Shown here one piece after another: positions 3,814-59,969 of a stretch of 64,000 nucleotides of DNA. The stretch lies in the NCBI GenBank assembly GCA_026394395.1, contig JAPKYK010000001.1:349940-413939 (forward strand). The letters are read 5' to 3'. Source of the DNA: Methanomassiliicoccales archaeon (GTDB lineage Archaea > Thermoplasmatota > Thermoplasmata > Methanomassiliicoccales > UBA472). The position numbers and the translations under genes are program-made. The number at the start of each line of letters is the position of its first letter. The first letter of the stretch is position 1. The notes under the pieces are model-generated. The model saw only the letters and a program-made list of their open reading frames with translations, was not told where the DNA came from and did not search any database.

Positions 3814-3914
3814 TGGCGCCGAGGGGGAGATTTGAACTCCCGAGGCGTTGCCGCCACGAGCTAGCTGGCGGAAATTTTCCAGGCTCGCGCCTTACCGGTC
3901 TGGGCCACCTCGGC
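3814..3914 (-). tRNA. tRNA-Ser(GGA) with a 14-nt intron
   Basis: The acceptor stem GCCGAGG/CCTCGGC closes with discriminator G and an encoded CCA (3814-3816). The T loop is TTCAAAT and there is a long variable arm, as expected for serine. The anticodon stem CGAGC/GCTCG is interrupted: CTGGAA is followed by 14 extra bases before the final loop A. CTGG pairs with a CCAG inside the intron, flanked by 3-nt bulges AAA and CTA. That is the bulge-helix geometry cut by the archaeal splicing endonuclease between positions 37 and 38. After removal the loop is CTGGAAA, anticodon GGA. Confidence 0.92.
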
Positions 3915-13242: not shown

Positions 13243-14595
13243 ATGGGAGAGGCAGAGATTCAGTTGGTCTTGTTCCAGCTTTTCGTTATCATACTCCTGG
13301 TAGAAGTAGCCAGGATAGTATGCAACAAGACCAAGGTCCCATCGGTGATCGGCGAGATACTGGTGGGCATCATCATCGCCAATACCATCTTGATGGGCTT
13401 AATCGACCTGGATTCCGACATGGACTTCTTCATGATCCTCAAGAATCTGGGTGTGATATTCCTTCTGTTCTCCGTAGGTCTGCAAACGCCGTTCAGCACC
13501 ATCCGTAAGATAGGTGGGACCGCCATCCTAGTGGCCACTTGCGGGGTCCTCCTCCCGTTCTTCGCTGGTTACGGTCTCATGGTCGGCCTGGGCTATCCGC
13601 TTATCGAGTCCTTGTTCGTGGGGGCTGCGCTGGTAGCCACCAGCGTGGGCATCACCGCCCGAGTAATCAAAGACATGGACCTCATGCGCACCATCGAATC
13701 GCGAGTGATTATCGGGGCCGCAGTAATAGACGATGTGCAAGGCATGATCGTACTGGCCATCGTAGTCGGCATCGCTGGCGGAGGCGCCTTCGATATAGTC
13801 CAGGTGGGCCTGGTGTCCGTTGAGGCAGTGTTGTTCGTCCTGGCCATAATATTCATCGGTTCCCTTTTGCTGCCGAAGATGGTCAAGGGAAGGAGCGATA
13901 AGAGGAGGGCCAGTTTCGGAGATGACCGGCCCAGAGGATTGTTCTCTCGTCTGTTCCCCAATTATCCCAAGAAGCGCAGGGAGAAGAAGGCAGTCAGGCT
14001 CAGGACCACTGACCGCAGGTCCAAGGGCATCAGCCCCCTCCCGCTGGCTCTGATAATCTGTTTTGCTCTCTCCTTCGTCTCCTCGTACATAGGTCTAGCG
14101 GCAATTATCGGAGCCTTCCTGGCAGGAATGGCCTTCGCCGAGTTCAAGGACACCTGGCCCTGTGAGAGCAAGATTGAGCCCATCACTGAGTTCCTGTCTC
14201 CATTCTTCTTTGTTTTCGTGGGCATAAGTGTCGTACTGGCCGATTTCAAAGACGTAATAGTACTGGCCCTGGTGATAACCGGGATCGCTATCGTTACCAA
14301 GTTCATAGGGTGCGGGCTGGGAGCCAAGAAGCTCGGTGGGAAGTCTATGGCCATTATCGGGGTGGGCATGATCCCCCGTGGCGAGGTCGGCCTAATCGTT
14401 GCTAGCATCGGCATAACAATGATAGATAAAGGAACCGGTCTTCCATTCATTGAGCAGAACCTCTACAATGCCATCGTCTTCATGTCTGTGGCCACCACAT
14501 TAATGGCGCCACCGCTACTATCATACACGTTCAAAAGGAAACATGGAAAAAATCAAGCCCGGATCCCTGCAGATGTCGAGCAAAGGACCGAATGA
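13243..14595 (+). CDS. Cation:proton antiporter (CPA2, NapA/KefB-like)
   Basis: A protein of 450 residues with about 12-13 membrane helices, exchanging Na+ or K+ for protons. It opens with a helix containing LLVEVARIVCNKTKVPSVIG, the first inverted-repeat half of the family. VIIGAAVIDDVQGM (about 160-173) holds the paired Asp residues that bind the transported cation. A basic cytoplasmic loop of about 50 residues (about 215-265) separates the two halves. No C-terminal TrkA-N domain is present, which separates it from full Kef channels. The coupling ion cannot be read from sequence. Confidence 0.88.
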   Translation: MGEAEIQLVLFQLFVIILLVEVARIVCNKTKVPSVIGEILVGIIIANTILMGLIDLDSDMDFFMILKNLGVIFLLFSVGLQTPFSTIRKIGGTAILVATCGVLLPFFAGYGLMVGLGYPLIESLFVGAALVATSVGITARVIKDMDLMRTIESRVIIGAAVIDDVQGMIVLAIVVGIAGGGAFDIVQVGLVSVEAVLFVLAIIFIGSLLLPKMVKGRSDKRRASFGDDRPRGLFSRLFPNYPKKRREKKAVRLRTTDRRSKGISPLPLALIICFALSFVSSYIGLAAIIGAFLAGMAFAEFKDTWPCESKIEPITEFLSPFFFVFVGISVVLADFKDVIVLALVITGIAIVTKFIGCGLGAKKLGGKSMAIIGVGMIPRGEVGLIVASIGITMIDKGTGLPFIEQNLYNAIVFMSVATTLMAPPLLSYTFKRKHGKNQARIPADVEQRTE

Positions 14596-33393: not shown

Positions 33394-33703
33394 CTTGTTT
33401 TCCTCCACTCACGGCCTCATGTCGGAGGCGCACCTTTGTTGAACGAGGTAAGAGCAGCACTTGTCCGTCCTTTCACATCCCTTGAGGTCTTCAAGACGAC
33501 ATCTTATGTTCAACAAAAGGTGCTAATAGATAAATGTATAGTTAAAGCTTTTGTTGATAGTTACATGCGCATTAAATTATAATTTTACTATTCAATTGTA
33601 TATAATTTCATTCATTTGAAAATAATATGGCATAAACGGCCCAGCGGTCCTATTCCCTACGGCAGGTGATTAACTTTTTAGATGGAGGCAACGATTCCGC
33701 ATC
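33394..33703. promoter_or_regulatory. Divergent glnA/alaX control region with repeated TTTGTTGA
   Basis: About 310 very AT-rich bases. TTTGTTGA occurs at 33435-33442 (+), 33511-33518 (-) and 33550-33557 (+). The first two sit in a longer inverted repeat, 33431-33444 against 33508-33522 (14 bp with one extra A). TATA-like sequence for glnA lies at 33527-33545 on the minus strand, so the repeats bracket the start of transcription. TTTTTAGATGG near 33675 may serve alaX. No gene is seen. Confidence 0.55.
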
Positions 33704-34882
33704 ATGACCCATAAGCTTTACCAGGACGATCCATACATGGCCGAGTTCGAGGCCCGCGTCGACCATACGGACGGAGAATGGGTCGCCCTGGACCGCACGG
33801 CCTTATATCCAGGAGGCGGGGGTCAGAACAAGGACCAAGGGACCATCGATGGGCTGGATGTCAGCGATTCCAGGGTCAAGGACCGCATCGAGCACAGGGT
33901 ACCTGGACATAAGTTCAGCATCGGGCAGGTCGTCCATTGCCGGGTGGATTGGGCCCGCAGGTACGATCTCATGAGGTCCCACACCGGGGAGCACATGCTG
34001 TTCTCCGCACTATCGCGACGGACCGAAATCGAGCTGGTGAAGATCTCGCTGACCCCAGAGAAGAGATCGTTGATCGTCAAGGGCGATATCGATTGGGACC
34101 TAATCAAAGACGCACTCCAGGAGGTTAACGGCCTGATTCTCAAAGGGCAGGAGGTCAGGGCCGAGGTCCTTTCCAAGAACTGCGTGGACGGCTCAAGGAC
34201 GCGCATCAAGATGGACAGGATACACGGGGACAGCGTGCGGGTCATCAGCATAGGTGATTACGATGAGGCGGCCTGCACCGGTGTGCACGTCCACAACACC
34301 AGGGAGATAGGTTTCCTGATGATCACCAAGTTCACCTCCGCCAAGCCGGTAGGGGATTGGGAGATAGAGTTCCAGATAGGGGAGGCGGCGGCGAGGTCGT
34401 CATCAAGCTTCGCCGTGGAAATGCTCCGGGCGTCCGAGATCTTGGGGTCGAACCCGCAGGACTTCCGCGTGGCCTTCGAGAACCGCGAGTCCGAGCATCG
34501 GAAGGCCATGGAATCCTTGAAACAATACTCCAAAGTGGTGCTGAACGCCCTCGAACCGAACCTAGTTGGAGAGACCAAAGTATACGCCGCTCATTTCAGG
34601 GGCATCGACCGCAAGCTGCTGATGGACAAGGCCACCGACATAGTTTCTGGCACATGTTCCATCGCTATCCTGGTATCTGAGGAGGACAAGTCGTTCCTAG
34701 TGCTTTCCCGGTCCCCCGATCAGGACATCGATTGCGTCTCGATCGTCAATGAGGTCCTATCGGAGTTCGGAGGAAGGGGCGGGGGGAAGGCGGGTTTCGC
34801 CACCGGAGGCACGCCCGGGGCCGTGGAGGGGGGCATCATCATCTCCAAGGTGCTTCAGCATATAGGTCTGAAAGGCAAATGA
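33704..34882 (+). CDS. alaX: Alanyl-tRNA editing protein AlaX (long form)
   Basis: A protein of 392 residues that removes serine (or glycine) from mischarged tRNA-Ala in trans. It matches the editing and C-terminal parts of AlaRS without the catalytic core. ALDRTALYPGGGGQ is near residue 30. Zinc ligands are in SHTGEHMLF (about 92-100) and CTGVHVHN (about 193-200). The C-terminal oligomer/tRNA-binding (DHHA1) part ends with a GGRGGGKAGFATGG glycine-rich loop (about 354-367). It is divergent from glnA. Confidence 0.93.
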   Translation: MTHKLYQDDPYMAEFEARVDHTDGEWVALDRTALYPGGGGQNKDQGTIDGLDVSDSRVKDRIEHRVPGHKFSIGQVVHCRVDWARRYDLMRSHTGEHMLFSALSRRTEIELVKISLTPEKRSLIVKGDIDWDLIKDALQEVNGLILKGQEVRAEVLSKNCVDGSRTRIKMDRIHGDSVRVISIGDYDEAACTGVHVHNTREIGFLMITKFTSAKPVGDWEIEFQIGEAAARSSSSFAVEMLRASEILGSNPQDFRVAFENRESEHRKAMESLKQYSKVVLNALEPNLVGETKVYAAHFRGIDRKLLMDKATDIVSGTCSIAILVSEEDKSFLVLSRSPDQDIDCVSIVNEVLSEFGGRGGGKAGFATGGTPGAVEGGIIISKVLQHIGLKGK

Positions 34883-46536: not shown

Positions 46537-49500
46537 TCATCTCCTTCTCACCTGTACGATGACGACCGCAGCGATGGCTATTGTCGCGATGGTCAACGCT
46601 CCGACCAACAGCCACGGGAACTCGTCCGCTGAGGCGACCGGCGTTCCGGTCCACTGATTGTCGTCCAGGTCCGAATCCCAGCCTTCTTCCGTGATCACCG
46701 AGACCGTGAGGTCCCCTTCTGCGAAGTCCGTCAAAGGTATCTGGCAGGCGACTGATCCGCCTGCCAGGACCGTCACGTTCTTGCGGTACACTACGCCCCC
46801 GGCCTCTACCTCCACCACCACGTCCGCGTCCAGCGGGCCGTCGTTGGTCAGTACCGCACTGAGCGTCCATCCGTCATCCCCTTCGGTGCAGGTGGCGTTG
46901 TTCATCGCGATGTCCCCGGTCCTTACGCTCACCAGGGCGAAGGTGACGTTCCGCCCTCCGTGGTCGTCCGTGACCGTCAGGCTCACCCAGAAATCGCCAT
47001 CCAGCTCGTACCGGTGAACGATGCTCGGTCCTTCTCCCGATCCACCGTCGCCAAAGGCCCAGGTGTAGTTGGTCACGCTCCCATCCAGGTCCTCGGCGTC
47101 CGCGGTCAGGACCATATCTCGCGGATGGCCGGTTCCCTGTTCAGCAATTATTCGCGCCTCTGGTAGCAAGTTGAGCACGACCACCGTCGCCTCTGCCGTC
47201 GCTGACCCTCCAACGTCATCGACGCAGGTGAGGGCGACGGTATAGTTGCCCGGGGACGAATAAGCGTGTTCGACGGTCTCTCCTTCCCCGGTGCTACCGT
47301 CGCCGAAGTCCCAGTTGTACGACGCGATCGTTCCGTCCACGTCGCTCCCGGTCGCCTGGAGCTCTATCAGGTCCAGGGACCAGTGCTCCCCTTCCGGAGA
47401 GATGATGGAAGCCTCTGGCGGACGGTTGAGCACCACCACCGTCCTGGAGGCCGATCGGCTCGCGCCGTTCTGGTCGGTGACGGTTAGGACCACCAGGTAT
47501 TCGCCCGGAAGGGCGTAGGCATGGACGGGAGATGACGCGGTGGAACCGTTCCCGTCCCCGAAGTCCCAGCTCCAGTGGTCCAACGTACCTTCGCGGTCAG
47601 AGGAGGTGTCATTGAAGTGAACCTCTATCAAGCTCAGGACTGTTCCCGTGCATACGAAAGAGGCGGTGGGAGGGGAGTTGAGCACCGTCAGGCTCTTGGA
47701 GGTGGTGCTCGAAGCGCCATTATCATCCACAACCGTCAGGGTTACCTGGTAAGTTCCCAGCCTGGCATAGCGATGAACGACACTGCTTCCCGTCCCGCTC
47801 TGTCCGTCCCCGAAGCTCCAGGTCCTGGAAGCGATCGAACCGTCGCTGTCCGTGCTGCCGTCCGTGAAGGTCACCTGGTCCAGGCTGTAGATGGATGAAG
47901 GGGACCAGGAGAAGGCGGCCGTTGGCGCCATGTTCCCCACCGGAACGTTCCTGCTCCTCGTGGAGGTCCCACCATCCGCATCCAACACGGTTAAGGTGAC
48001 GGTGTAATCCCCGTTCAGCCTGAAGGCGTGGTTCGGCGAGGCCACATCGGAGGTGGTGCCATCGCCGAAGCTCCAGCTCCAGGTCACGACGCCTCCGTCA
48101 GCGTCCGATGAGTGGTCCGTGAAATGCACCAGGTCACCAGAACAAGGTTGCGTTGGGGAGTACGAGAAATCGCTGGTCGGGGCGTAGTTCACGATGTTCA
48201 GGTCCCGGTCACAGGTGCTGTTGAGCCCCTTGTGGTCGGTCACGATCAGCTCTACGATTATTGGGCCTTTCACGCTGTACCGGTGACTCACCTGGCTGCC
48301 GTAAGCCAGAGTTCCGTCCCCCAGGTCCCAGGTCCAGTTGGCGATGCCCGAGCCGCTGTCGCTATAGTCGGTGAATATCACGCTGACCAGGACGTCCGGG
48401 ACGGCGGGACTGACCGAGAAGTCGGCCTCCGGTTTATCATGAAATATGCTGCACAACGAGACCTTGGGATAATGGTCGTAGACGTCATCGGTGTCATAGG
48501 CCACGTCCACGATGCCGTCCGCACCGTAAATGCTCTGGGACACGCCGTTCCTGTGGTCAATAGTCAGGTGATCGGACCAGTGGTTCCCCCCGGCAGGATA
48601 GTCCTTGCCGAAGGTCAATGTTGACGACGTCCCGCAGACCTGCCGCTCGTTGTTCAACAGGTCGTTGCTCCAGATCAAGGCGTCCGAGCCCATCGCCCAT
48701 ATGCCGACCGAACAGTTCTCCACGGCGTTCCCGATCACCTCTATGCCAGTGCAGTCGACCAAGGTCAATCCCTGACCGCTGCCGCCCAGGCGCAGTCCGC
48801 GCACCACAGTATCGTGGCAGTCCACCAGGTACAACGCACCGATGTCACCCTCCACGGTGACGCCGTCCTCCTGATGCAGTATCACCACCGGGCCGAAGGT
48901 GACGTTCACCCTCTCCAGGTCCGGCAGGAAATGCGCCTCCAGCGTTCCCGAGATACTGAGGTCCGCCTCATTGTTCAGCAGTTCGATGTTCCGCAGCACC
49001 AGCCCGCTAGATGTATCGATGGTCAAGCCCACGGACCCTTCGGTCCAGGTCACATTGGACAGCTGGCCAGAGGAGCTCAGGAGGTAAAGCCCTCCTCCAT
49101 GTCCTGTGACGCCCTCAGCGACCAATGATGAGCCGTTGAACAGACATTCCGAGCTCTGGTCCAGCAACTGTGTTCCGGACAAGGTCACCGACGCGCCTTC
49201 CAGCGACCACCCCATCCCCCCATGGACGATGGTGTCCCGAAGCTCCAGCGACCCACCGTCCATCGTGCTCGGGGATGTCGTGGAGAGTCCTGAGAGGTCA
49301 CTGCCGCTGAACCTCACCACACCTCCGTTGGACATGAATACATAACTGGAACCGCTAAAGGAGGAACCGTTCACCAGCAACGTGCCGTTGACCTGGACCT
49401 GGTGGTCGCTCCCGGCCGAAAGGAACTCGATGGTGCAGTTGCGTATGTCCAGGGTCGCTCCATCGTCGATGATCAGGCTGCCAGCCAGTTCCTTATGCAG

Positions 49501-51627
49501 GTTCTCCCAGAGGGTGTAATTGGATATCCTCTGGTAGACCCGGACCTCCACACTAAGCTGGTCGTTCTCCGAGGTACCGTCAGTAGCGCATTCCACGACC
49601 GCGGTGAGGACGTATGGGCGCGCCTCCGTGGGGGTCCATGAGAGGGTCACCCAGGTGCTCTGCCCAGAGGTGATGGAGATCTTAGTCTGGTCCACCAGGA
49701 CGTCATCCGCCATCAGGCTGACGTTGCCTTCCTCCGGGAAATCGCCATTGTTGCTCACCAGCACGTTCACTTCCGTTTCCTCTCCCAGCACGTAGGCGTC
49801 CGCGGATATCTCCTGCACCGCCAGGTCGTGCGTCCCCTGCCCGGCCTTCTTCACGCTGGTCTCCGGATCCCCCAGAAGGTTTTGTTCCATGTACACCCAA
49901 CGGATGGTGTTCGCGGAGGATGCCGACCCCACCAATTCCTGTTTAGACTGGGACATAGCCTTGCCCAATTGCGTCACATCATCGTCGAACACCTGGCTGA
50001 AGAAGGACAGATCGAACTTCTGCGAAGACCCGGAGGTGCTGCCCTGGGAGTACCAGCCGTAGCGCGAGTTGCCGATGAAGGCCGCCGCGCCGTTCTCCCC
50101 GATGACGAACTCCTCAGCTATGCTGTCGTACGGGTAATCGGTCCCCTGGTCGAAGCCAGCTACCATGCAGGCCTGGGTGTAGACGATGAACGGATGCTCG
50201 TTGTTCAGGTTCGCGGCGTTCAAAACGCTGAGGCCGGCGAACGTCCCGTAGTTGCCATGGCCCATGTGGTTTATGATGTGCGGGCTGGTGTTCATCGCTG
50301 ATATGAAAGCGGAGGCGGAGAAGGTGTCATCCTTCGCGTACAGGGTGGTTAGGCTCAATCCTTTGTCGGCCAGAATATTGTCGTACACCTCGTCCTTGTA
50401 ATCATCGCCATAAGTTGGATAATCATCCAGATACTCGCCGACGAACAGCAGATCGACGCTGTATTGGCTAACGTATCCTTTCTCGTACTCAATGGTATTG
50501 TTGACGAAGTTCCAGGCCTCCTGGACGTTGGAAACCGGAGCGCGGCCGACGTAGACCTCGGCCAGCATATCGGTCCCATCCACATACGATTCCCCGTATA
50601 CGCCATCAAGGTCACTGTCCCAATCTCCGTCCAGACATGTGAAATAGATGTCAGCTGGCAGCTCATCGGAGTAAGTGCTATATGACACCCATACCTTCCG
50701 GGAAGGAATGACCTCCTCGTCCCCGCCTATGAGCACGTAGCTGACGCCCCATTCCTGATGGGCGGCGATGATGAAATTGCGGACGATGGTCTGGGTATCG
50801 TTGCCCGTGCCGTCATGCGAGGACGGCGTCCCCCAGAAAGCGCTCTGGGCCAGGATGAACTGCAATGTCACCACCACGCTGGTGATGTCCTGGGAGCTCG
50901 ACCCCCGCTCGTTCCTTTCCCCCTTCCACTCCGCCAGGGATAGGAACGGTGCCGTCAGGGCCTCATCGGTTATGATGAGGTGTTCGTAGCTTCCCGTAGG
51001 CAGAACGCCCTCCGGCACCAGGCGGTCCAAGTAGGGTACCTCGTCAGGGTTATCGACCATCTCCCGAACCATATCCAGGTCGCCCAGCCAATCGATGCCG
51101 GTCTCCTCGCTCACGATGGTGACGGTGAAATCGGATATGAAGGTCAGCTGTCCGGAGCGGCTGTCCCAGACCAAAGGACGCAGGTTCAGGCAAACGATCT
51201 CCACTCCTTCCAGCACATAGGTGCCGGCCAGGTCCCAGGACCCTCGATCGACGATCTCCTCGACCACAGTGCCGTTGCCCGCCGGGGACTCGAAGGGATT
51301 CCGAGGATAGTCGGAAATTATCTCCACCTTAGAAGGCGAGGACGAGCCCACCTCCAAATTCTTCAAGGTGTAGCCAGGCTGTAGAGCCAAAAGCAAGTTC
51401 TCCACCGGCAGTGAGGGGGCTCCGGCGACGGCGTCCTGCGACAGCCCCTGCAAGGTGAATGTCCGCTCGTCGCTCTCCAGGTCAACGGTGGGCGCAGAGA
51501 AATGATACTCATAGGACGTGGTCAGGTCCCCGTCCTCCGCGGACAGGCTGGCCGATGGAAGGGGGAGCACCATCAGGACCGCCAATATCACTATTGCCGC
51601 CCTGTGCAAGCTGGTCGACGCGTCCAT
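46537..51627 (-). CDS. Giant surface protein: C25-type protease, beta-helix, six PKD domains
   Basis: A protein of 1,696 residues from ATG 51627 (signal peptide, about 1-30, AAIVILAVLMVLPLPSASLS). A gingipain-like C25 peptidase occupies about 200-590, with catalytic His in NHMGHG (about 455) and Cys in TQACMVAG (about 487). A CARDB-like domain (about 625-730) is next, then a right-handed beta-helix (about 730-1060). Six PKD repeats follow (about 1066-1580, each with WxFGDG or a close variant). A beta domain and a C-terminal helix with RRR complete it (about 1670-1696). It should be anchored outside with protease outward. A role in protein degradation or adhesion is inferred. Confidence 0.88.
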   Translation of the reverse strand: MDASTSLHRAAIVILAVLMVLPLPSASLSAEDGDLTTSYEYHFSAPTVDLESDERTFTLQGLSQDAVAGAPSLPVENLLLALQPGYTLKNLEVGSSSPSKVEIISDYPRNPFESPAGNGTVVEEIVDRGSWDLAGTYVLEGVEIVCLNLRPLVWDSRSGQLTFISDFTVTIVSEETGIDWLGDLDMVREMVDNPDEVPYLDRLVPEGVLPTGSYEHLIITDEALTAPFLSLAEWKGERNERGSSSQDITSVVVTLQFILAQSAFWGTPSSHDGTGNDTQTIVRNFIIAAHQEWGVSYVLIGGDEEVIPSRKVWVSYSTYSDELPADIYFTCLDGDWDSDLDGVYGESYVDGTDMLAEVYVGRAPVSNVQEAWNFVNNTIEYEKGYVSQYSVDLLFVGEYLDDYPTYGDDYKDEVYDNILADKGLSLTTLYAKDDTFSASAFISAMNTSPHIINHMGHGNYGTFAGLSVLNAANLNNEHPFIVYTQACMVAGFDQGTDYPYDSIAEEFVIGENGAAAFIGNSRYGWYSQGSTSGSSQKFDLSFFSQVFDDDVTQLGKAMSQSKQELVGSASSANTIRWVYMEQNLLGDPETSVKKAGQGTHDLAVQEISADAYVLGEETEVNVLVSNNGDFPEEGNVSLMADDVLVDQTKISITSGQSTWVTLSWTPTEARPYVLTAVVECATDGTSENDQLSVEVRVYQRISNYTLWENLHKELAGSLIIDDGATLDIRNCTIEFLSAGSDHQVQVNGTLLVNGSSFSGSSYVFMSNGGVVRFSGSDLSGLSTTSPSTMDGGSLELRDTIVHGGMGWSLEGASVTLSGTQLLDQSSECLFNGSSLVAEGVTGHGGGLYLLSSSGQLSNVTWTEGSVGLTIDTSSGLVLRNIELLNNEADLSISGTLEAHFLPDLERVNVTFGPVVILHQEDGVTVEGDIGALYLVDCHDTVVRGLRLGGSGQGLTLVDCTGIEVIGNAVENCSVGIWAMGSDALIWSNDLLNNERQVCGTSSTLTFGKDYPAGGNHWSDHLTIDHRNGVSQSIYGADGIVDVAYDTDDVYDHYPKVSLCSIFHDKPEADFSVSPAVPDVLVSVIFTDYSDSGSGIANWTWDLGDGTLAYGSQVSHRYSVKGPIIVELIVTDHKGLNSTCDRDLNIVNYAPTSDFSYSPTQPCSGDLVHFTDHSSDADGGVVTWSWSFGDGTTSDVASPNHAFRLNGDYTVTLTVLDADGGTSTRSRNVPVGNMAPTAAFSWSPSSIYSLDQVTFTDGSTDSDGSIASRTWSFGDGQSGTGSSVVHRYARLGTYQVTLTVVDDNGASSTTSKSLTVLNSPPTASFVCTGTVLSLIEVHFNDTSSDREGTLDHWSWDFGDGNGSTASSPVHAYALPGEYLVVLTVTDQNGASRSASRTVVVLNRPPEASIISPEGEHWSLDLIELQATGSDVDGTIASYNWDFGDGSTGEGETVEHAYSSPGNYTVALTCVDDVGGSATAEATVVVLNLLPEARIIAEQGTGHPRDMVLTADAEDLDGSVTNYTWAFGDGGSGEGPSIVHRYELDGDFWVSLTVTDDHGGRNVTFALVSVRTGDIAMNNATCTEGDDGWTLSAVLTNDGPLDADVVVEVEAGGVVYRKNVTVLAGGSVACQIPLTDFAEGDLTVSVITEEGWDSDLDDNQWTGTPVASADEFPWLLVGALTIATIAIAAVVIVQVRRR

Positions 51628-51659
51628 ATGCAACCCCAGTCATATTCAGAAGGTACCCT

Positions 51660-51670
51660 TTGATATATAA
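51660..51670 (-). promoter_or_regulatory. TATA box for the surface protein
   Basis: ATTATATATC on the minus strand, 33-43 bases before ATG 51627, with GGGGTT between them. Confidence 0.6.
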
Positions 51671-51774
51671 TTCGATTCACATCGCTGTCAAGAAAATCGC
51701 ATCTTGGAAAATATTAGAATGACAAATCGTAATCGTTCGATTCTTGATCGGTTTAAGCATATTAGCAATTCAGC

Positions 51775-58524: not shown

Positions 58525-59205
58525 TCAGAGCATCTTCAGGTGCTCCAGGCCTTCCAGCACGCCCTCGGAGTGCTCTTTCTTCGCCACGTAGTCCGCCGCT
58601 TGCTTGGCCAGCTCCGAGGCGTTCCCCACTGCCACCCCGTAGCCGCACCCCCGCAGCATGATGGCGTCATTGTCCGCGTCCCCGAAGGCCACCACCTCCG
58701 AGGGGTCCAGGTCCAGCAACTGGCAGGCCTTGGCCACTCCGGCCATCTTGCTGTGCCCCTTCTCCATCATGTGGATGGCGAAGCCGGTGGCCTCGATGTC
58801 CACTGGCCATCCTGATAGCAGCTCCCGCACCTTCACCAGGTCGGCGCTGCGGTTGAGCGCCACCTCGGTCTGCCGCCACTGGTCGGTATAAAGGCGCTTT
58901 ATCCCAGGTATCTTCTTTTGAAGATGAGCAAAGGCCCTGAGGGGCTCCTCGTTGGAAAATAGTCGATGTACCTCGTCCCGGTACGAGACGATGCCGCCGT
59001 TCTCCGCCACTACCGGTCCTTGGAGACCGATGAAAGTTGAAAGGCCGTAGGCGATAGGGAGAACGTTCCCGCTGGCCAGCATGACCATGTATCCTTTGTC
59101 CTGCACTTTCCTCAACGTCTCTATCCCCAGGGTCTGGATGACCCTGCGGGGATCGGTGATGGTGCCGTCCACATCGCACACCATCGCCCGATATCGCATC
59201 TTCAT
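58525..59205 (-). CDS. Phosphoglycolate phosphatase (archaeal HAD IIB type)
   Basis: A protein of 226 residues from ATG 59205, which overlaps the mptA stop (ATGA). HAD motif I is MVCDVDGTIT (about 8-17). Motif II lies in MLASGN (about 43-48), and motifs III/IV in KMAGVAKACQ...VVAFGDADNDAIML (about 165-186). The Cof-type cap and length match the archaeal PGP family, which removes phosphate from 2-phosphoglycolate; other sugar phosphates are possible. Confidence 0.88.
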   Translation of the reverse strand: MKMRYRAMVCDVDGTITDPRRVIQTLGIETLRKVQDKGYMVMLASGNVLPIAYGLSTFIGLQGPVVAENGGIVSYRDEVHRLFSNEEPLRAFAHLQKKIPGIKRLYTDQWRQTEVALNRSADLVKVRELLSGWPVDIEATGFAIHMMEKGHSKMAGVAKACQLLDLDPSEVVAFGDADNDAIMLRGCGYGVAVGNASELAKQAADYVAKKEHSEGVLEGLEHLKML

Positions 59206-59834
59206 TCCGAATCCCGTCGCAGCTCGCCGAGGGTGGTGATCCTCTCGGCCATGGCGTTGTGCTTGTGGATGGACTCCTTGCTCTCCGACCGCACGATGAC
59301 CTCGGTCGTGTCGGGCAGGTCGCTGTAGCGCTCCACGACGGCCTTGAGGATGTCGCGCACGATGTCCTCGACGAACTTGTCCACCGACTCCATGGCGCAG
59401 GGGCAGGCGGTCATGCCTATGACCCGCACGCCGATCATCTTGGTCATGCCATTGCCCCGTTTGTGGCTGGCCTTGGCCACCAGCTTGTAGGACTCTATGC
59501 TCTTGCGTCCGGTCGGCAAGGTCCTCTCCAGGAAGTAGTCGGCGTTTATGTGCACCTCGGCGTAGGTGGCGTAATCGTGGCGCTCCAGCAGCTTGCGGCA
59601 CACGTCCGCGGCCAGGACCTCCAGTCCCTTGATCGGCTGGCTTACCCCCTGCTCCACGATCTCCGAAATGACCTCCAGGTTCCGGGAGAGGTGGGAGCCC
59701 CTCTGGGTGGAAGGCAGGTCGACGAAAACGTCGATATCGCAGTTGAGGCAGGTGTCCTTGCCCCCGCGGTGCACCCGCACCGGCTTCTTGACCCCGGTGA
59801 CCCCCACCCGGGTCAATTTGAACCCATTGGTCAA
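59202..59834 (-). CDS. mptA: GTP cyclohydrolase MptA/FolE2-type, internally shortened
   Basis: Converts GTP toward the pterin of tetrahydromethanopterin in the normal family. LTRVGVTGVKKP, FVDLPSTQRGSHLSRN, GMTACPCA and ESIHKHNAMAERITTLGELR are all family phrases. From the TTG at 59834 it has 210 residues against roughly 300 normally. The stretch of about 80 residues after CPCA, including the THNQR motif, is absent. The true start may be an ATT at 59864 with GGTGA five bases upstream, since DVQN before the TTG matches the family's N-terminus. Function of the shortened form is uncertain. Confidence 0.85.
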   Translation of the reverse strand: MTNGFKLTRVGVTGVKKPVRVHRGGKDTCLNCDIDVFVDLPSTQRGSHLSRNLEVISEIVEQGVSQPIKGLEVLAADVCRKLLERHDYATYAEVHINADYFLERTLPTGRKSIESYKLVAKASHKRGNGMTKMIGVRVIGMTACPCAMESVDKFVEDIVRDILKAVVERYSDLPDTTEVIVRSESKESIHKHNAMAERITTLGELRRDSE

Positions 59835-59969
59835 ATGCCGGTTCTGAACATCGCTCTTAGAAATTCACATCACCGCTTCCTCCATCCGGGGATTCATTTT
59901 ATATCTTAGCCTATCAACAATTTTTTTGGTAAACGATGTTCCAACTGGTCGAACTTCCTTCAGCAGTCA

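Follow-up and report, generated by a model that had tools for sequence, protein, structure and literature searches.

GTP cyclohydrolases of the IB type include the archaeal protein MptA. In passages that concern its pathways, the literature describes MptA and MptB as catalysing the first reactions on the archaeal route to archaeosine (PMC5485725), gives 7,8-dihydroneopterin 2',3'-cyclic phosphate as the product of MptA (PMC3087415), and places MptA in the part common to folate and methanopterin synthesis (PMC8305020). In the bacterial enzyme GCYH-IB of N. gonorrhoeae, the residues that serve as landmarks here are numbered on chain 3d2o as Cys 147, His 159, Glu 201, Glu 216 and His 246. We take Cys147, His159 and Glu201, matched here by numbering, to be the metal ligands of this enzyme, and Glu216 and His246 are presumably active-site residues.

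Here we report an mptA gene that, as assembled, lacks part of this set. It lies in a stretch of 64,000 nucleotides (the window) from the genome of a Methanomassiliicoccales archaeon, for which a preliminary description, made from the DNA alone, had proposed an MptA missing its middle segment. We confirm that positions 59202-59864 on the minus strand encode MptA, of the GTP cyclohydrolase IB type, with an internal deletion. If the deletion is real, this is a methane-producing archaeon with archaeosine and pterin genes and with no GTP cyclohydrolase I that has a recognisable active site, and it lends itself to testing either whether GCYH-IB can function once the canonical metal site is gone, or whether the pathway has a first step that has so far escaped recognition.

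Results

An in-frame deletion in mptA

The gene is one open frame of 220 codons, running from an in-frame ATT (59862-59864, minus strand) to a stop (59202-59204). Profile PF02649 matches it in two pieces, at model positions 3-154 and 221-260 of 260, with no stop in the frame between them and no match to positions 155-220; the score is 155.8 bits over the two stretches (cut-off 25). In a codon alignment each of nine same-genus relatives has 289 codons counted from the DVQ motif, as against 216 in the window. The missing 73 codons, exactly 219 bp and in frame, lie between ESVD and KFVED, so that the frame reads ...GMTACPCAMESVD|KFVEDIVRDIL... across a junction at 59379/59380 (minus strand), where one base (C) is assignable to either side. 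Upstream of the junction, the part at 59380-59864 encodes the complete first tunnelling-fold module and the first strand of the second; the part at 59202-59379 encodes the second module's final helix together with two of its strands. The codon alignment and the single open frame thus bear out the clean in-frame deletion, free of any frameshift, that had been proposed. It had been sized at about 80 residues, which overstates the 73 codons absent, and placed at about 59395-59410, some 15-30 bases from the true site; the THNQR motif said to be missing does belong to the lost segment, where the genus has SHNQR or THNQR.

No N run interrupts the contig sequence at the junction, which answers the concern that an assembly gap might lie there, though an assembly error that left no such run keeps some likelihood. 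Comparison with five relatives revealed no repeat in register with both deletion ends, and the longest words common to the two ends measure 5-8 bases (57-60 bases considered around each end).

The start of mptA is an observation in its own right. In nine of the ten genomes of the genus no ATG, GTG or TTG precedes the DVQ motif, and in nine of ten ATT TCN AAG AGC GAT GTT CAG follows immediately on an in-frame TGA, behind GGTGAT; the window's start (59862-59864, minus strand) is at the same place in L007, L009-L011 and L013-L016. Among 83 distinct upstream sequences, 25 contain no ATG, GTG or TTG within 20 codons before DVQ, and several of these show GGTGATnnnATC, ATT or ATA. The pattern points to a conserved non-canonical AUU or AUC start of mptA, of which a literature search found no report.

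Copy number and distribution

The window's assembly comprises 1,643,772 bases in 6 contigs (completeness 99.85). A profile search of the whole 1.64-Mb assembly found a single PF02649 locus, and neither this search nor one with a lost-segment peptide found a second full-length mptA or a split gene elsewhere in it. The peptide, taken from L010 and spanning the lost segment, matched only the two flanks of the same mptA at E <= 10, so no partner protein carrying the missing segment was found in the assembly at that threshold. The second full-length copy that was thought capable of undermining the initial proposal therefore did not turn up in the searches of this assembly, although one might conceivably lie in sequence that was left unassembled.

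All nine same-genus relatives have a full-length mptA, leaving the deletion in one of ten genomes of the genus. Across the order, 114 of 116 genomes have a PF02649 match (those without any are G064 and G109), and in 110 of the 114 it is unbroken, starting at model position 1-3 and ending at 260. The other incomplete matches, in G022 (2-227), G043 (81-260) and G050 (two pieces, 3-73 and 79-260), all still cover the segment lost from the window's gene; every one of the 113 other matching genomes of the order covers that segment, and the search for the same deletion found none among them. At class level, a match is present in 185 of 203 genomes of at least 90% completeness. The 18 without PF02649 (G121, G176, G185-G189, G206-G208 and G213-G220) include all eight listed members of genus g62, three of genus g59 and five of family f19. 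A literature search of open-licence papers found no published MptA variant of this kind. The deletion, seen in one genome, is tentatively read as species-level.

Fourteen homologues with low-scoring, incomplete or multiple matches were inspected in detail, 13 from class genomes among the matches listed and one from G050. The incompleteness in G022 and G050 looks like frameshifts, and that in G140 and G148 like contig edges. None of the 14 is without the segment deleted in the window's mptA. The HNQR histidine is present in all 14 (as HSQR in one), nine of which have 25-38% identity to L023, and the LKRxxE glutamate in 12. Two full-length MptA relatives, L150 and L151 (G209 and G210, genus g60), have Ser in the Glu201 column and retain CPC, HNQR or HSQR and the last His motif, while the very divergent L153-L156 and L158 (G223-G225, G231 and G232; Pfam 82-105 bits) retain CPC, HNQR and the last His motif. 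The LKRxxE glutamate may thus be dispensable, because L150 and L151 have Ser there; the metal site is not readily so, because all 14 of these divergent or incomplete homologues keep the HNQR or HSQR histidine.

Residues lost and retained

Of the positions aligned, 68 are invariant in 39 relatives. The lost segment holds 16 of the 68 (HNQRN, I, E, S, T, LKR, E, V, A and H). Outside the gap 51 of the remaining 52 are present in the window's MptA, namely 33 of 33 before it and 18 of 19 after it, the exception being a V to I change, and both flanks are as well conserved as had been claimed. Among the motifs kept and aligned are CPC (59397-59405, minus strand), whose first Cys aligns with Cys147 of the N. 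gonorrhoeae enzyme, the Glu of KFVED (59367-59369, minus strand), aligned with Glu216, and the HKH of SIHKHNA (59259-59267, minus strand), aligned with His246 and His248. The residues aligned to His159 (in HNQR) and Glu201 (in LKRxxE) are absent, and the protein does not have a contiguous PF02649 domain that includes the segment with these two motifs. On the basis of the ligand roles assumed above and the matched numbering, two of the three metal ligands would be gone. With that loss, the known Fe2+-dependent way of opening the GTP ring should be closed to the shortened MptA.

Predicted structure

Structure prediction had been put forward as a way to see whether the active site can form. The AlphaFold2 model of the full-length relative L023 has a mean pLDDT of 86.8 and a pTM of 0.83; that of the shortened MptA has a mean pLDDT of 79 and a pTM of 0.71, with residues 157-162 at the junction below 50. 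In the L023 model the second half is built from strands at 139-154, 180-193, 261-269 and 278-284 and helices at 156-165, 200-210, 221-233 and 238-252. The deletion corresponds to residues 163-235 of L023 and, in this predicted model, removes strand two along with the helices as far as residue 233. In the shortened model the first module is retained, and of the second there remain three strands and one helix. Strand 2 and the helices preceding KFVED are absent from it; the predicted chain therefore does not contain two complete tunnelling-fold modules. Its best matches in the PDB are GCYH-IB structures (Z 13.8-14.4), including 3d2o_B (Z 14.4, 185 residues aligned, rmsd 3.1). The first module alone also matches dihydroneopterin aldolases at Z about 12-13, a difference of only about 1 Z or less from the weakest of the GCYH-IB matches.

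Divergence and selection

The two parts of the gene differ in their rate of change. Rates were compared over the pairs that contain the window, G016 or G018 (24 of 45). Before the gap, dN between the window and its nine relatives is ordinary (0.064-0.110, with 0.073-0.114 in the 15 other reported pairs); after the gap it is raised, at 0.226-0.283 as against 0.051-0.111 in the other reported pairs, and dS there is similar (0.45-0.91 for the window's pairs, 0.43-1.45 for the other reported genus pairs). Where the other nine genomes agree, the window has a unique residue at 1 of 116 positions before the gap and at 9 of 44 after it (Fisher P 4e-5). A modest rise in change is seen immediately ahead of the gap as well, with 16-19 versus 3 nonsynonymous differences in the last N windows. 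As a control, 582 segments of 55 codons were drawn from 25 other genes of the window, 9 of the 34 listed genes being left out for stop codons or for want of a partner in both relatives; 39 of the 582 match or exceed the after-gap excess, 12 reach at least the after-gap ratio, and 3 of the 225 segments that are about as conserved between G013 and G015 reach the after-gap level. Thus 1-7% of the control segments, according to the measure chosen, are as extreme, which makes the excess unusual. Since this wider control weakened a within-gene test that looked strong, the excess is supporting evidence and not decisive.

The 16 changes at 54 positions after the gap struck only 1 of 19 invariant positions (hypergeometric P 0.003). 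These substitutions avoid family-invariant positions, which argues against free decay.

A foreign origin of the C-terminal part was considered and rejected. Its best match among the gathered sequences is 75%, with no close source; its synonymous distance to the genus (0.45-0.91) lies within the range of other pairs (0.43-1.45) and is larger to three genomes outside the genus (1.06-1.12).

Several other features of the window were noted in passing. The protein encoded at 33698-34858 (plus strand) has changed much faster relative to G013 and G015 than most window genes and accounts for seven of the eight 55-codon segments with the greatest excess, at dN about 0.43-0.65. At 46576-51684 (minus strand) a protein of about 1,700 residues is encoded, with about 46% identity to its G013 and G015 counterparts, and the protein encoded at 13243-14580 (plus strand) carries an insert of 22-28 residues relative to those in G015 and G013. 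ARAGORN predicts a tRNA-Phe of 101 bases with anticodon AAA at 3814-3914 (minus strand), in which both anticodon and length are unusual and possibly reflect an intron or a miscall.

Pathway context

Genes for the routes that use the product of MptA are in place. QueE, QueC and QueD are clustered on contig 3 (L125 2387-4168), all as open frames, and their dN and dS against five relatives lie inside the range seen in other pairs or at its edge; TGT and MptD (PF04038) are also present in the genome. The downstream neighbour of mptA, a HAD phosphatase of the archaeal phosphoglycolate phosphatase type (58525-59199, minus strand), is part of this locus in each of the nine relatives and shows ordinary divergence. 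Since QueD, QueC, QueE, TGT and MptD are present and QueD, QueC and QueE evolve in an ordinary manner, demand for the MptA product seems to persist.

Two ways around MptA were examined and set aside. Neither a FolE-type protein (PF01227), which might replace MptA, nor an importer of the YhhQ type (PF02592), which might bring in preQ0, was found in 22 genomes of the family, the window's included. The PF02649 and PF01227 searches of the genome brought up no type I GTP cyclohydrolase besides the shortened MptA.

The preliminary description stood up well on the deletion, its flanks, the single copy and the conservation of the remainder. Its further suggestion, of a link to the loss of tetrahydromethanopterin C1 chemistry, is not supported by the distribution given above, with a PF02649 match in 114 of 116 genomes of the order and a whole one in 110 of the 114. 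As MptA is kept throughout the order, it presumably has another job there, and the window's genome does have the QueD, QueC, QueE, TGT and MptD genes.

Discussion

Three facts about this genome conflict: its MptA has lost the metal segment, the remainder of that protein is retained, and so are the downstream genes. The reading that we tentatively prefer, while granting it somewhat less than an even chance, is a real species-level deletion in a pterin-fold protein that has been retained in an altered role, without the known GTP-opening mechanism. The in-frame loss of 219 bp would have stripped the second tunnelling-fold module of its second strand and of the helices and loops that come after that strand, and with them the HNQR histidine and LKRxxE glutamate of the species' only MptA. 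Selection would still maintain the rest, that is, the first T-fold module and a remnant with the pterin-side Glu and the His pair, and the protein would most likely persist as a guanine- or pterin-binding T-fold protein with a changed role. Such a retained but altered protein accounts for the lost metal segment and the kept remainder; it requires that the intermediate for the intact archaeosine and pterin genes be supplied by a source not yet recognised.

An error of assembly or consensus, or a minority strain variant taken into the consensus, would leave the organism with an ordinary full-length MptA; we consider this unlikely. It readily explains the intact QueD, QueC, QueE and MptD, the ordinary evolution of the first three, the nearly complete retention of family-invariant residues and the presence of the deletion in only one of ten genomes of the genus. 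Against it, there is no in-register repeat to collapse, the words shared by the two ends in five relatives being 5-8 bases long, and a random loss would be in frame only one time in three. Good local assembly is supported by the window's 55 conserved stretches as aligned to three relatives, a set in which several entries have stop codons or early ends (shadow or upstream readings and one tRNA): none of the other 54 shows, in its best alignment, a gap of more than 7 residues in the window. Under an assembly error, the rise in change beyond the gap would also be coincidental, which the control allows at the 1-7% level. A real deletion that recently inactivated the gene, in a cell that copes without MptA activity or has just lost it, is quite unlikely in our judgement. 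The loss of 16 invariant residues, with two of the three presumed metal ligands, should destroy the enzyme, and the raised change after the gap fits a gene on its way out. However, the frame has no stop or frameshift, the invariant residues outside the gap are present but for one, and dN before the gap is ordinary; the after-gap excess is left unexplained if the pseudogene is young, and QueD, QueC and QueE show no decay. Inactivation thus explains the lost metal segment, and neither the kept remainder nor the kept downstream genes.

The intact QueD, QueC, QueE and MptD, which an inactive MptA does not explain, suggest that the MptA reaction is still running, and the shortened protein might itself be a working GTP-opening enzyme or an essential subunit of one. 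The metal site could have been rebuilt, for example from the CPC cysteines, the KFVED glutamate and the HKH histidines, or a T-fold enzyme such as QueD could give ligands in a mixed oligomer; taken jointly, we regard these two versions as improbable. In their favour, this is the only type I GTP cyclohydrolase candidate found by PF02649 and PF01227 in a genome with the genes of both downstream routes, it has the CPC motif, the equivalents of Glu216, His246 and His248 and every invariant residue before the gap, and the Glu201 equivalent is Ser in two distant relatives. A rebuilt site, though chemically bold, would explain all three conflicting facts. Yet the HNQR or HSQR histidine persists in all 14 divergent or incomplete homologues, including the nine at 25-38% identity, QueD shows no clearly unusual change, and model confidence collapses at the junction. 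As the shortened MptA is without the metal-site feature of its family, its annotation as a GTP cyclohydrolase should wait for an assay; the retained protein with an altered role continues to be the reading that we tentatively favour.

Comparison with known systems

The shortened protein can be set beside three described groups. With dihydroneopterin aldolase, a single-module T-fold protein, its first module shares the fold (PDB 5f3m; Z 13.1, 111 residues aligned, rmsd 2.2), but identity is 11%, a likeness of fold only and not of sequence membership. Bacterial GTP cyclohydrolase IB (FolE2) supplies the best structural matches of the shortened model (PDB 3d2o, 5k95, 8g6c, 8g8v, 8tcc and 2r5r) and matches a full-length MptA relative in sequence, whereas the shortened MptA is without the equivalents of His159 and Glu201. 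Archaeal MptA itself (TIGR00294; M. jannaschii MJ0775 type) differs in having the 73 codons with HNQR and LKRxxE, and the curated profile nonetheless labels the window's protein a GTP cyclohydrolase in spite of the missing metal-site segment (236.3 bits over two stretches, cut-off 220). Judged from its sequence, the shortened protein is by descent MptA, and it shares with the MptA of its genus the same downstream HAD phosphatase neighbour and 51 of the 52 invariant residues outside the gap.
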